Source: an uncultured Oscillospiraceae bacterium
Lineage (GTDB): Bacteria > Bacillota > Clostridia > Oscillospirales > Oscillospiraceae
NCBI GenBank assembly: GCA_947623745.1
Contig: CANQHN010000013.1
Coordinates: 1 to 64,000, forward strand
Length of the DNA stretch: 64,000 bases
Direction of reading: 5' to 3'
Under the pieces are notes generated by a model, which did no database searches, was not told the DNA's origin, and was given only the letters and a program-made list of their open reading frames with translations. Positions 13,795 to 50,154 of the stretch are shown in pieces. Position 1 is the stretch's first letter, and the number at the start of each line of letters is the position of its first letter. Position numbers and translations under genes: made by a program.

Positions 13795-13938
13795 AAGCTT
13801 ACAGCAAGAGAGGAACCAGCGCAAGTCCTAAATGAAAATTTTTGAATCTGCGCGGTTTTTCGACAGCTTATCCAGGGGCCCGGCTTCGGGCCTCTACTAG
13901 AACAAAATTTGCCGATTTCAAGAAAGGAAGTCATTACT

Positions 13939-14211
13939 ATGTCCGAAACTGTTATGAAAAAAATCTGCCCCAGCTGCAAGGCCGAAATGGAGCTGTCGGT
14001 GAAGTCCTACCCCATGGGCAGCGCCTTCATCAAGGACCGCTTCCACGTGGACATCTACCGCTGCCCCGTCTGCCAGAAGGTGGAGCTGTTCGCCGCGGAG
14101 AGCGACATGGTCACCTGCCCCGTCTGCGGCAGTGTCCACCCCGCCCATGAGAAGTGCGTCAAGTGCGCCCTGGACTCCGCCTTCGACGGCACCTATACCC
14201 AGGTCAAGTAA
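13939..14211 (+). CDS. Small eight-cysteine zinc-ribbon protein
   Basis: A 90-residue protein with four CxxC knuckles: Cys10/13, Cys42/45, Cys60/63 and Cys73/76, enough for two zinc ribbons. It has no signal peptide and is likely cytoplasmic. The start ATG has AGAAAGGAAG upstream; an upstream TTG would add ten residues without a site. The function is unknown. It is a single-gene unit between the LysR gene and a hairpin plus repeat element. Confidence 0.7.
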   Translation: MSETVMKKICPSCKAEMELSVKSYPMGSAFIKDRFHVDIYRCPVCQKVELFAAESDMVTCPVCGSVHPAHEKCVKCALDSAFDGTYTQVK

Positions 14212-14294: not shown

Positions 14295-14560
14295 GTCCAA
14301 AAAGGCTGCAGCCCGCGGCAGCGCGCGTCGTCGCAAGCTCTATATCCTTCGCTTCCGCCTACGGCGAAAGCTCACTCATTACGCTGCTCCTCCTTTCCCA
14401 GCCGAACCCGCTGCGCTGGGCTTCGGCTGGGGACCCATTTTCCAACTCGAACGTTTGCGGGCCGAGAGGAATTTTTCCCGACGTGCACGCCGCCGGGAAA
14501 AATAGATTTCAATTCTTCGCGCCTGCGGGCGCGAACTCTGCGAGGCTTTTTCGACAAACT
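14295..14560 (+). repeat. Modular intergenic repeat, copy A
   Basis: First of four related elements (others at 24810, 25652, 38461). It ends with TTCGCGCC-TGCG-GGCGCGAA (14516-14535) and CTCTGCGAGGCTTTTTCGAC. It contains ATTTTTCCCG (14471-14480) pairing with CGGGAAAAAT (14494-14503). It shares with copy D a ~125-bp cassette (about 14326-14452) that has its own hairpins. The GTCAAAAAAGGCC hairpin of the other copies is reduced to GTCCAAAAAGG here. It fills the gap between the Zn-ribbon gene and the GTPase gene. No open frame is credible. Confidence 0.85.
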
Positions 14561-14585
14561 GAAAACAGCTGAGCGTTTTATATTC

Positions 14586-17243
14586 CTATTTCGCTCCGCC
14601 CTCCCGGCGGGTGACGTTGGCGGTGTATTTCAGCTTGTCCCTCTCCCGGCCCTTCCGGTTGTGCTCCCGGATGAACCGCTCCAGCTCCCCCTGGACCTGC
14701 TCCACCTCCTGGCGGAAGGTGCGGGCGGAGATGCGCAGGGCCCCGTGGCCCAGGATGATGAGCTGCTCCAGGCCGTCGGAGGTGGCCACCCGCACCTTGT
14801 GGTGCCGGCCCAGGTCGTAGGTGGCCTTCTCGATGTAGGCGTCGGCGGTCTCCGCCTCCTTGGTGTAGACCACGTAGATGCCCCCTGTTTTCTCCACCGA
14901 GCCGGGGTTGTTCTTCACCTTGTAGGCATCAAAAACCAGGATGACCTCACACTGGCGGGCGGCCCGGTAGTTTTTCAGAAGGTCGGTGAGGGCGGCCCGG
15001 GCGTCGTCCACGTCCTCCTGGGCCAGCTGCTTCAGGTCCTCCCAGGCGAAGATGATGTTGTAGCCGTCCACCAGCAGGTACTCCGGCCCGGTCTTTTGGG
15101 GCTGGATGGGGGCGGAGTACCGGGTCTCGTCCAGGCTGGTGCGGGCGGGCTTCTTCGTGGGCTGGAAGGCCCGCTCCCCCACCTTGCCGTAGGTGCGCTC
15201 AAAGATGGCCTGGAGCTGCTTGTCCTGCTCCAGAGACGGCCCCGGCCGGGACACCCGGCCCCCCATGGGAACCTGGGGCGCGTCCTCCCCCGGCGCCCCG
15301 TCCAGATCCAGGCCGCTGTCCAGGTGGGCCAGCTCCGGCACCTTGTCCCAGGGTACCACATACCCCGCCCCGTGGTCGCAGAACACCGAGCCGGTGGGGT
15401 TGAGCACGTCCCGCTCCGGGTCGTAGCCGATCCGGGCCACCACCTCCTCCTGGTCAGCGCAGGGCCGGTAGCCCGCAAAGCGGGTGAACAGCCGTCCCCG
15501 GCCCTTGGTGTAGGCGCTGACCTGCCGCCAGTAGTCCCGCATTTTGGACACCGGGGCGCTGCCGGTGAGCAGGGACAGCTCTCCCGCCCCCTCGGGGCTC
15601 TGGAACTCGCCGCCCATGGCCTGCACGTCGGCCATGGCCCGGCCCACGCAGTCCCCGGGCAGCTCCAGCCGGAAGGCGTACCAGGGCTCCAGCAGGATGT
15701 TCTGAGCGCCCATCAGCCCCTGCCGCACCGCCCGGTAGGTGGCCTGGCGGAAGTCGCCCCCCTCGGTGTGCTTCAGATGGGCCCGCCCGGCTATCAGCGT
15801 GATCTTCATATCGGTGATGGGGGAGCCGGTGAGCACCCCCAGGTGGACCTTCTCATACAGGTGGGTGAGCACCAGCCGCTGCCAGTTCAAATCCAGCTCG
15901 TCGGTGCCGCACGCGCTTTCAAACCGCAGGCCGCTGCCCCGCTCCCCCGGCTCCAGCAACAGGTGCACCTCGGCGTAGTGGCGCAGGGGCTCGAAGTGGC
16001 CGATGCCCTCCGCCGGGGCGGCGATGGTCTCCCGGTAGACGATGCTCCCCTGGCTGAAGGTGACCTCCAGGCCGAACCGCTCCAGGATCACCCGTTTGAG
16101 CACCTCCAGCTGGATCTCCCCCATCAGCTGCAGGTGGATCTCCCCCAAAGTCTCGTTCCACACCAGGTGGAGCTGGGGGTCCTCCTCCTCCAGCTGGCTG
16201 AGCCTGGGCATCACCGCGTGGGGGTCGCACCCGGCGGGCAGGCACAGCTGGAAGCTGAGCACCGGCTCCAGCACCGGCGCGCCGCCATCCTTCTCCGTCC
16301 CCAGGCCCTCCCCAGGCCGGGTCCTGCTCAGGCCGGTGACGGCGCACACCGTTCCGGCCTCCACGGCGTCGGCGGTCTTATACTTGGCCCCGGAGTAGAT
16401 GCGAATCTGGTCCACCTTCTCGCTCCAGGCCCCCTCCCCGGCCCCGCCGGAGAGCAGGTCCTTCACCGCCAGCCGCCCGCCGGTGACCTTCAGGTAGGTC
16501 AGCCGGACCCCCTGGGGGTCCCGGGCGATCTTGAACACCCGGGCGCCGAACTCGGACGGGCAGGCCGGGTCTGGAGCGTAGCGCTCCAGGCCGTCTAAAA
16601 ACTCCTCCACCCCCTGCACCTTCAGGGCCGATCCGAACCAGCAGGGGAACAGCTTCCGCTGGGCGATGAGGGTGGACAGCTCCCCCTGGGAAATCTCCCC
16701 GGTCTCCAGGTACTGCTCCATGGCCTCCTCGCCGCACAGGGCCGCGCTCTCCCAGAAGGCGTCGTCCCGGGGGGCGGAGAAGTCCACACAGTTGTCGTCC
16801 AGCCGGGCGCGCAGCTCGGAGAGCAGGGCCTCCCGCCCCGCCGTCTCCAGGTCCATCTTGTTGATAAAGAGGAATGTGGGGATGCGGTGCCGCCGCAGCA
16901 GCTGCCACAGGGTGTAGGTGTGGCCCTGCACCCCGTCGGTGCCGCTGATGACCAGGATGGCGCAGTCCAGCACCTGCAAGGTGCGCTCCATCTCCGCGGA
17001 GAAGTCCACGTGCCCCGGCGTGTCCAGCAGGGTGACCTCCCGCTCCCGCAGGGGCAGCACCGCCTGCTTGGAGAAGATGGTGATCCCCCGCTCCCGCTCC
17101 AGGGCGTCGGTATCCAGGAAGGCGTCCTGGTGGTCCACCCGGCCCAGCCTGTTGATGCTGCCGCTGAGGTAGAGCATGGCCTCGGACAGGGTGGTCTTGC
17201 CCGCGTCCACGTGGGCCAGGATTCCCGCGACCAGTTTTTTCAT
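14586..17243 (-). CDS. TetM/EF-G-like ribosomal GTPase fused to a YacP/Rae1 NYN nuclease
   Basis: An 885-residue protein. Residues 1-~650 match translation GTPases of the Tet(M)/EF-G class: AHVDAGKTT (10-18), DTPGH (74-78), NKMD (128-131), then the elongation-factor domains II to V. After a Pro-rich linker, residues ~720-885 are a complete NYN/YacP domain with every acidic motif: VDGYN (Asp726), VFDA (Asp772), KEAETAD (Glu798, Asp801) and ATSD (Asp823), plus the GALRxSAR helix. In Bacillus subtilis the stand-alone YacP (Rae1) cleaves mRNA in the ribosomal A site. A ribosome-binding GTPase carrying such a nuclease would deliver it to the A site; this is inference. Tetracycline protection is possible but not shown. 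It is single-gene, with repeat copy A at its 3' end. Confidence 0.88.
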   Translation of the reverse strand: MKKLVAGILAHVDAGKTTLSEAMLYLSGSINRLGRVDHQDAFLDTDALERERGITIFSKQAVLPLREREVTLLDTPGHVDFSAEMERTLQVLDCAILVISGTDGVQGHTYTLWQLLRRHRIPTFLFINKMDLETAGREALLSELRARLDDNCVDFSAPRDDAFWESAALCGEEAMEQYLETGEISQGELSTLIAQRKLFPCWFGSALKVQGVEEFLDGLERYAPDPACPSEFGARVFKIARDPQGVRLTYLKVTGGRLAVKDLLSGGAGEGAWSEKVDQIRIYSGAKYKTADAVEAGTVCAVTGLSRTRPGEGLGTEKDGGAPVLEPVLSFQLCLPAGCDPHAVMPRLSQLEEEDPQLHLVWNETLGEIHLQLMGEIQLEVLKRVILERFGLEVTFSQGSIVYRETIAAPAEGIGHFEPLRHYAEVHLLLEPGERGSGLRFESACGTDELDLNWQRLVLTHLYEKVHLGVLTGSPITDMKITLIAGRAHLKHTEGGDFRQATYRAVRQGLMGAQNILLEPWYAFRLELPGDCVGRAMADVQAMGGEFQSPEGAGELSLLTGSAPVSKMRDYWRQVSAYTKGRGRLFTRFAGYRPCADQEEVVARIGYDPERDVLNPTGSVFCDHGAGYVVPWDKVPELAHLDSGLDLDGAPGEDAPQVPMGGRVSRPGPSLEQDKQLQAIFERTYGKVGERAFQPTKKPARTSLDETRYSAPIQPQKTGPEYLLVDGYNIIFAWEDLKQLAQEDVDDARAALTDLLKNYRAARQCEVILVFDAYKVKNNPGSVEKTGGIYVVYTKEAETADAYIEKATYDLGRHHKVRVATSDGLEQLIILGHGALRISARTFRQEVEQVQGELERFIREHNRKGRERDKLKYTANVTRREGGAK

Positions 17244-24809: not shown

Positions 24810-24983
24810 ATCAAAAGCCTCGCAGAGTTCGCGCCCGCAGGCGCGAAAAATTGCAATCTATTTTTCCCGGCGGCATGTACGTCGGGAAAAATTCCTCTCG
24901 GCCCGCAAACGTGCGAGCGCAGCGAGTGCGCTGCCGCGGGCCGCAGCCCTTTGTCAAAAAAGGCCAAAGGCCTTTTTTGACAG
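24810..24983 (-). repeat. Modular intergenic repeat, copy B
   Basis: Same family as copy A but in reverse orientation and without either cassette. It starts with AAAAGCCTCGCAGAGTTCGC, has the CCCGGCGGCATGTACGTCGG core, and ends in the perfect hairpin GTCAAAAAAGGCC-AAA-GGCCTTTTTTGAC (24953-24981). It lies directly after the hydA stop codon. Confidence 0.85.
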
Positions 24984-25633: not shown

Positions 25634-25646
25634 GGCCTGTGCCTGT
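25615..25646. terminator. Hairpin at the end of the PF06541 gene, first copy
   Basis: A 14-bp perfect stem (25615-25628 with 25633-25646) overlapping the stop codon. The central 25 nt (25620-25644) recur exactly at 25899-25923 on the other side of repeat copy C. Confidence 0.8.
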
Positions 25647-25651
25647 CAGCT

Positions 25652-25889
25652 TGTCGAAAAAGCCTCGCAGAGTTCGCGCCTGCAGGCGCGAATCTGATTT
25701 AATCCATTTTTTCCGGCGGCGCGCCCCAGGGCGGTCTCTCTTGCCCCTTCGGGGCAATTCACCTTCTGTACGTCGGAAAAATACATCTCGACCCGCAAAC
25801 GTGCGAGTTGTCCACCTTTGGCGGACAGCGAGTGCGCTGCCGCGGGCCGCAGTTCTTTGTCAAAAAAGGCTTTCGGCCTTTTTTGACAG
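25652..25889 (-). repeat. Modular intergenic repeat, copy C
   Basis: Reverse orientation like copy B. It carries a ~45-bp cassette with the hairpin TTGCCCC-TTC-GGGGCAA inserted in the loop of the CCCGGCGGC/GTACGTCGG core; copy D has the same cassette and A and B lack it. It ends with the GTCAAAAAAGGC/GCCTTTTTTGAC hairpin. It is flanked by two exact copies of a 25-nt palindromic hairpin sequence. Confidence 0.85.
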
Positions 25890-38460: not shown

Positions 38461-38790
38461 GTCAAAAAAGGCCAATGGCCTTTTTTGACAAAGGGCTGCG
38501 GCCTGCGGCAGCGCGCGTCGTCGCAAGCTCTATATCATTCGCTTCCGCCTATGGCGAAAGCTCACTCATTACGCTGCTCCTCCTTCCCCAGACGAACCCG
38601 CTGCGCTGGGCTTCGGCTGGGGGCCCATTCTGCTCGCACGTTTGCGGACCGAGATGTATTTTTCCCGACGTACATAAGGTGAATTGCCCCGAAGGGGCAA
38701 GAGAGACCGCCCTGGGGCGTGCCGCCGGGAAAAATGGATCATATTTTATTCGCGCCTGCGGGCGCGAACTCTGCGAGGCTTTTTCGGCAA
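38461..38790 (+). repeat. Modular intergenic repeat, copy D
   Basis: The longest member. In order: GTCAAAAAAGGCC-AAT-GGCCTTTTTTGAC hairpin (38461-38489), GGGCTGCGGC segment, the ~125-bp cassette shared with copy A, ATTTTTCCCGACGTACAT, the GAATTGCCCCGAAGGGGCAA cassette shared with copy C, CCGCCGGGAAAAAT, then TTCGCGCC-TGCG-GGCGCGAA and the GCGAGGCTTTTTC end. It fills the gap between the convergent secA and response-regulator genes. Confidence 0.88.
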
Positions 38791-38797
38791 ATTGATG

Positions 38798-49909: not shown

Positions 49910-49933
49910 AGAGGGCGAACAACTGAATCGCTT

Positions 49934-50044
49934 GTCTTCAGGGCGGGGTGAGATTCCCCACTGGCGGTAAAGTCCGCGACCCGCGAAAGCGGCTGACCCG
50001 GTGCGACTCCGGGACCAACGGTATAGTCCGGATGGAAGAAGATG
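49934..50044 (+). promoter_or_regulatory. FMN riboswitch (RFN element)
   Basis: A clear RFN aptamer: CTTCAGGGCGGGGTGAGATT at the 5' side, CCCCACTGGCGGTAAAGTCC, GCGACCCGCGAAAGC, CGGTGCGACTCCGGGACC and the closing GTATAGTCCGGATGGAAGAA. Downstream (about 50051-50100) AAAACAATACA can pair with TGTATGTTTT around the GCGCCGTTCGGCGC hairpin, a likely expression platform. FMN should switch off the riboflavin transporter. Confidence 0.95.
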
Positions 50045-50154
50045 TGTGGAAAACAATACACGCGCCGTTCGGCGCGCATGCGCACCTCCTTGTATGTTTT
50101 GCACCTGGAAGACACAGTCTTTCAGGGGTATCAAAACAGTAAGGAGTGTTTTTT

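Follow-up and report, generated by a model that had tools for sequence, protein, structure and literature searches.

The window, by which we mean the whole stretch of 64,000 nucleotides that was analysed, carries on its reverse strand a gene in which an EF-G-type translation GTPase is followed in frame by a nuclease domain of the YacP/Rae1 type. The gene and its parts are listed below; invariant positions were counted in an alignment of 66 rows, namely the window protein and 65 taken from the 80 loci that represent its best relatives.

14586..17243, minus strand: whole fusion gene, 885 codons plus stop, ATG start (Pfam)
16572..17243, minus strand: GTPase (G) domain, aa 1-224, with AHVDAGKTT, RGIT, DTPGH and NKMD (Pfam; 60 of 224 positions invariant)
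16308..16571, minus strand: EF-G domain II, aa 225-312 (Pfam, below cut-off, 22.4 vs. 27 bits)
16050..16271, minus strand: EF-G domain III, aa 325-398 (Pfam)
15696..16049, minus strand: EF-G domain IV, aa 399-516, the domain proportionally richest in invariant positions (Pfam; 40 of 118 invariant)
15960..16007, minus strand: putative loop I of domain IV, aa 413-428, GIGHFEPLRHYAEVHL (alignment; 11 of 16 invariant)
15744..15788, minus strand: putative loop III of domain IV, aa 486-500, GRAHLKHTEGGDFRQ (alignment; 11 of 15 invariant; unlike Tet(O) and TetB(P))
15444..15695, minus strand: EF-G domain V, aa 517-600 (Pfam)
15324..15443, minus strand: SVFCxHGAG-type extension, aa 601-640, which Tet(O) and TetB(P) lack (strands and a helix in the model)
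15084..15323, minus strand: tether, aa 641-720 (pLDDT below 50 at 650-670 and 689-716; short helix at 671-685)
14709..15083, minus strand: YacP/Rae1-type NYN nuclease domain, aa 721-845, with the acids D726, D772, D801 and D823 (Pfam, match to B. subtilis YacP)
14589..14708, minus strand: divergent C-terminal helix, aa 846-885, at the position of the EKWRR-type tail of stand-alone Rae1 (model, alignment)

The Pfam domains GTP_EFTU (6-224, 3.6e-49), EFG_III (327-397), EFG_IV (400-513) and EFG_C (517-598) score above their cut-offs, as does NYN_YacP (723-870, 3.9e-48) with 164 bits against a curated cut-off of 24.6; EF-G_D2 is the only domain below its own threshold. Invariant positions make up 171 of the 885 residues of the full protein. 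They include K16, T17, D74-H78, N128, K129 and D131 of the GTPase and D726, N729, D772, T799, D801 and D823 of the nuclease. The earlier note had described a complete EF-G-type GTPase running in frame into an NYN/YacP domain with its motifs intact, and this is what was found: a single 885-codon frame in which the motifs are present and their key residues invariant. A chance frame or a mis-assembly was ruled out, since both parts lie in one frame in all 80 kept loci.

Of the stretches compared in the 66 rows, none is more conserved than the two of domain IV designated loops I and III, and, on our reading of the alignments, these two probably correspond to tip loops of this domain. The tether varies from 65 to 111 residues across the same rows, with only two of its 80 positions invariant. 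A single AlphaFold2 model constructed from the 66 aligned fusions has a mean pLDDT of 83.1 and a pTM of 0.61, and all 50 structural matches listed for it are chains of the EF-G/EF-2 type.

No conserved neighbour genes were found around the fusion: the largest cluster of neighbours touches 17 of the 80 loci, of which 55 have at least 3 kb on both sides. Several other features of the window can be noted. A dispersed repeat of about 270 nt (14296-14562) has one end 23 nt past the fusion gene's stop codon; further stretches of it lie at 24813-24917, 25646-25810 and 38490-38795, and the window's own genome contains 48 matching stretches, many of them partial. Convergent with the fusion gene is a 100-aa frame (13909-14211, plus strand) that has several Cys-x-x-Cys pairs, and an FMN riboswitch is located at 49930-50047 on the plus strand (112.6 bits).

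The GTPase part has the features of the EF-G (EF2) group, i.e., the G domain, domains III-V and the GTPase motifs, and a sequence search matched it to solved structures of EF-G, TetO and TetM. The earlier description of this part as TetM-like does not hold in the sense of tetracycline protection. The protein misses the curated scores of both the NCBIfam tet_protect model (395.3 bits, cut-off 775) and the Tet(M) model (209.7 bits, cut-off 1420), and loop III of its domain IV differs from the Tet type in an alignment that includes a single Tet(O) and a single TetB(P). In a tree of 72 selected GTPase rows (46 fused, 20 unfused and 6 outside), built by a quick method with SH-aLRT support only, all 46 fused rows cluster with a support of 99, together with a single unfused row that comes from a Ligilactobacillus salivarius megaplasmid. 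The remaining 19 unfused rows make up a second group with a support of 92, short of the 95 that the tool sets as its mark. Outside both groups fall Tet(O) and TetB(P) as well as two EF-G-type GTPases of the window's own genome. Tet(O) and TetB(P) thus do not group with the window GTPase, which has a subfamily of its own (SH-aLRT 99 in the same quick tree). Judged by these sequence comparisons, the GTPase represents a subfamily distinct from Tet(O) and TetB(P), the two proteins used in both the alignment and the tree, from which Tet(M) itself is absent. The two other GTPases encoded by the same genome are of EF-G size (707 and 701 aa), and we read them as EF-G. A 669-aa GTPase found in one further genome (G367, locus L157) lacks the SVFCxHGAG-type extension and is intermediate between the fusion's subfamily and Tet proteins.

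As for the nuclease part, it matches the solved B. subtilis YacP/Rae1 structures (5mq8 and 5mq9) at 3.9e-24, and its catalytic residues are invariant, in agreement with the YacP/Rae1 type assigned to it earlier. Fused domains were compared with stand-alone ones: the 48 fused domains include a contig-cut copy of 160 aa (G499), classed as fused, and the 26 stand-alone domains come from the 30 best-scoring loci of the phylum draw described below, which is not an even sample. D726, N729, D772, D801 and D823 are present in all 74 rows. The EKWRR-type tail is found in none of the 48 fused domains and in 23 of the 26 stand-alone ones; two arginines near the C-terminal end are retained in 2 of 48 (the window's protein included) and 20 of 26, respectively. 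In several Lachnospiraceae fused copies, a degraded remnant of the tail region can be recognised by eye. Differences also occur near the active site: Tyr774 is present in all 48 fused domains, whereas His occupies the same place in 19 of the 26 stand-alone ones, and the position after ATSD (824) is mostly small in the fused domains and aromatic or large in the stand-alone ones. Given that Tyr774 and the small residue at 824 differ from stand-alone Rae1, the substrate may differ as well.

Passages of recent papers describe Rae1 as a translation-dependent endonuclease whose action on mRNA takes place in the A site of the ribosome. The R166P substitution in B. subtilis Rae1 is given in a passage of PMC6613710 among the mutations read as loss of function. 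In the B. subtilis Rae1 sequence, R166 is the second arginine of the EKWRR tail, and we suggest that this tail may serve docking on the ribosome. Its absence from the fusions is what would be expected if docking has passed to the GTPase.

In public genomes, at least 587 relatives of the fusion were found, of which the best 80 were kept, so that the set leans towards full-length copies; each of the 80 is one frame of at least 845 aa containing both parts. Judging by their record titles, they come from Oscillospiraceae, Lachnospiraceae and further Clostridia. The fusion is a protein of many gut bacteria of clostridial type. A draw of 398 genomes of the phylum was searched with a subfamily profile of 16 rows covering residues 395-645, the C-terminal extension included. 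Matches that span almost the full profile and score at least 278 bits were obtained in 29 genomes, followed by one partial match at 199.7 bits and the rest at 143 bits or less. Twenty-three of the 29 genomes encode the fusion (frames of at least 857 aa) and six the unfused GTPase (651-674 aa).

In the nuclease tree, from which three duplicate rows were left out, the 48 fused domains form one clade (100/99.6, the bootstrap not being fully settled) separate from the 26 stand-alone domains. The distances of the two halves correlate at 0.643 over 46 fusions, and none of 2000 permutations gave a value as high (maximum 0.334). The halves of the fusion have evolved together. The fusion has essentially one origin, and the join is real and old. 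Among mobile elements, only two of 72,556 plasmid records cover at least 80% of the fusion protein. Two records named 'Bacteriophage sp.' (MT835514.1 and MT835563.1) also cover at least 80% of it; these are unverified and unannotated faecal scaffolds, possibly bacterial contigs, and phage carriage was not accepted on their basis.

Absence of a stand-alone yacP where the fusion occurs had been set beforehand as a test, and it was borne out: no second YacP domain was found in any of 70 fusion genomes, a count that takes in the genome of the window and enters overlaps only once. The window's own genome (97.9% complete, 76 contigs) has a single YacP match, which is the fused one. In a control for the YacP search, 2 of 14 named genomes gave a match, one of them B. 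subtilis. A YacP match was found in 208 of the 398 genomes of the phylum draw (205 above the cut-off), exactly one in each of the 23 fused genomes; for three of these, its placement rests on the fused frame itself holding the domain. YacP matches were also found in 185 of the 375 genomes without the fusion, with frame lengths available only among the matches listed. In a draw of 147 genomes of the order, YacP was present in 43 and no match was detected in 104. Forty-two of the 43 domains lie in frames of at least 833 aa, and the last one is cut by a contig end; no second match was found in any of the 43, the cut copy included. That copy, the 160-aa domain of G499, looked like a stand-alone YacP and was rejected as such because of the contig end.

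The 70 genomes are related and hence do not represent 70 independent events, so that exchanges within families are the stronger evidence. In one family (f62), one genome has the fusion and four have the stand-alone copy. Another (f77) contains nine genomes with the fusion, one with the stand-alone copy and nine without YacP. No second YacP accompanies the fusion in either family (1 of 1 and 9 of 9). The fusion thus seems to replace the stand-alone rae1 of its relatives.

The unfused relatives of the GTPase are annotated partly as 'translation factor GTPase family protein', and some are carried on lactobacillus megaplasmids. In the order draw, 10 of the 52 GTPase-bearing genomes have the GTPase without the nuclease and none of the 10 has a YacP match, six of them being less than 90% complete. 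Of the six unfused-GTPase genomes of the phylum draw, four have a separate YacP and two do not. An unfused GTPase in genomes without any YacP indicates that the GTPase probably has a function of its own. In the L. salivarius megaplasmid (L112:3529-5920), the unfused gene adjoins rpsN, which encodes ribosomal protein S14. An apparent double copy in one genome (G498) was discarded, as 4.2 kb around its unfused copy is identical to G536 from a different family, which is likely contamination of a contig. Of the 40 plasmid rows listed, 32 bear the annotation 'TetM/TetW/TetO/TetS family tetracycline resistance ribosomal protection protein'; a single one of these is fused, and the rest are unfused. 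Such annotation of the subfamily may inflate resistance counts.

Starting from the observed joined architecture, conserved active-site residues, replacement pattern and homologies, we propose that the protein could be a ribosome-directed mRNA endonuclease in which the GTPase has taken over docking for a tethered Rae1-type nuclease, and which has replaced free Rae1 in these Clostridia. We put the probability of this reading at about 0.5. The A-site role of Rae1, together with the tightest constraint falling on the loops of domain IV, suggests a division in which docking is performed by the GTPase and cutting by the nuclease. As to how it might work, we infer ribosome binding, its trigger, the order of the steps, the cutting site and a link to tmRNA as follows. 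The EF-G-type GTPase would dock in the factor site with the tip of domain IV in the decoding region, and a tether some 80 residues long would link it to the Rae1-type NYN nuclease. Its GTP form would bind a ribosome whose A site is vacant or blocked, and domain IV would probe or clear that site. GTP hydrolysis would then release domain IV, after which the tethered nuclease could cut the mRNA within or next to the A site and leave a truncated message for rescue by tmRNA. Because domain IV and the nuclease cannot share one A site, the cut would have to follow the departure of domain IV or fall on the neighbouring message. The window's own genome has a tmRNA match of 140.1 bits against an Rfam cut-off of 47. 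Drugs of the A site other than tetracycline are a possible trigger or protected target.

In favour of the ribosome-directed endonuclease count the invariant active sites, the conservation of the loops, the lack of a second YacP, the swaps within families, the coevolution of the halves, the lost EKWRR tail, the A-site role of Rae1 and the tmRNA of the same genome. Against it count the unfused GTPases in genomes without YacP, the unfused L. salivarius copy inside the fused group of the tree, the inability of one A site to hold both parts, the altered residues near the active site and the lack of conserved neighbour genes. A bolder version is more tentative: a GTP-powered rescue factor that senses an obstructed A site, clears it, cuts the message and hands the ribosome to tmRNA, and that might have replaced Rae1 and made its cutting GTP-gated in gut Clostridia of the Oscillospiraceae and Lachnospiraceae type.

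Alternatively, the two activities may be only loosely coupled, the GTPase having a ribosome task of its own and Rae1 working as before, merely co-located with it. The existence of unfused GTPases and the long, poorly conserved tether are consistent with such an arrangement. However, no free Rae1 occurs beside the fusion in any fusion genome searched, the tail of free Rae1 is lost in the fusions, and in the order draw YacP domains lie in fused-length frames in 42 of 43 cases, the last being cut by a contig end. We therefore consider loose coupling doubtful, if still a serious competitor. It is unlikely that the protein is an rRNA or tRNA maturation enzyme seated on assembling ribosomes by its GTPase. 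Atkinson, in a passage of PMC4342817, refers to Anantharaman and Aravind 2006 for a role of the NYN domain in rRNA/tRNA maturation, but in passages of later papers B. subtilis Rae1 is presented as an mRNA nuclease that depends on the ribosome, and the lack of a YacP match in 104 of 147 genomes of the order would be odd for a needed step. The least likely reading is protection against tetracycline or another A-site drug with the nuclease as an added resistance step, as suggested in a passage of Atkinson 2015 (PMC4342817): the fold is related to Tet proteins and Tet-type names prevail among the plasmid rows listed (32 of 40, one of the 32 fused), but the tet_protect score is 395 against 775, loop III is unlike that of Tet(O) and TetB(P) and the protein lies outside their branch, only two plasmid records cover the fusion even though unfused relatives occur on lactobacillus megaplasmids, and the fusion swaps with stand-alone yacP inside families f62 and f77.

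If the ribosome-directed endonuclease is real, common gut Oscillospiraceae and Lachnospiraceae would possess a translation factor that couples ribosomal GTP hydrolysis to message cutting. How A-site nucleases find ribosomes would also become testable, as the fusion names the docking partner. For surveys of resistance genes, it matters that members of the subfamily are labelled as tetracycline resistance proteins in public plasmid annotation while the window's protein fails the sequence tests applied here for that family.

A comparison with known systems places the fusion as follows. Elongation factor G has the same fold as the GTPase part and provides its best PDB matches both by structure and by sequence; it differs by a loop I that is four residues longer, and identity is 26% or less among the structural matches listed. 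Protection proteins of the Tet(O)/Tet(M) type share the G domain and domains II-V (the TetO match spans residues 2-596) and have no nuclease; Tet(O) and TetB(P) differ further by other domain IV loops, by the lack of the SVFCxHGAG-type extension and by their separate branch. B. subtilis Rae1/YacP shares the NYN_YacP domain and the catalytic residues, but it is a free protein, 170 residues long, that has an EKWRR tail and lacks a GTPase. The unfused relatives in Lactobacillaceae, Paenibacillus and some Clostridia are 45-50% identical over about residues 1-641, share HTxGGDFR as the core of loop III and resemble the fusion in their C-terminal extension, yet they are without the nuclease domain.

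The earlier note knew of no experimental description of the fusion; this part stands, as no experimental study of it was found in open-licence papers, whereas the architecture itself was already in print. A passage of Atkinson 2015 (BMC Genomics, PMC4342817) reports the same two-domain architecture in ten clostridiales as 'Tet' proteins and treats NYN as an acquired domain with a possible role in resistance. These proteins almost certainly belong to the same family as the window's fusion. In its passages on them, Rae1, the replacement and a separate subfamily do not appear. Thus, the architecture was known, and the single origin, the replacement of Rae1, the separate GTPase subfamily and the loss of the tail are new here.
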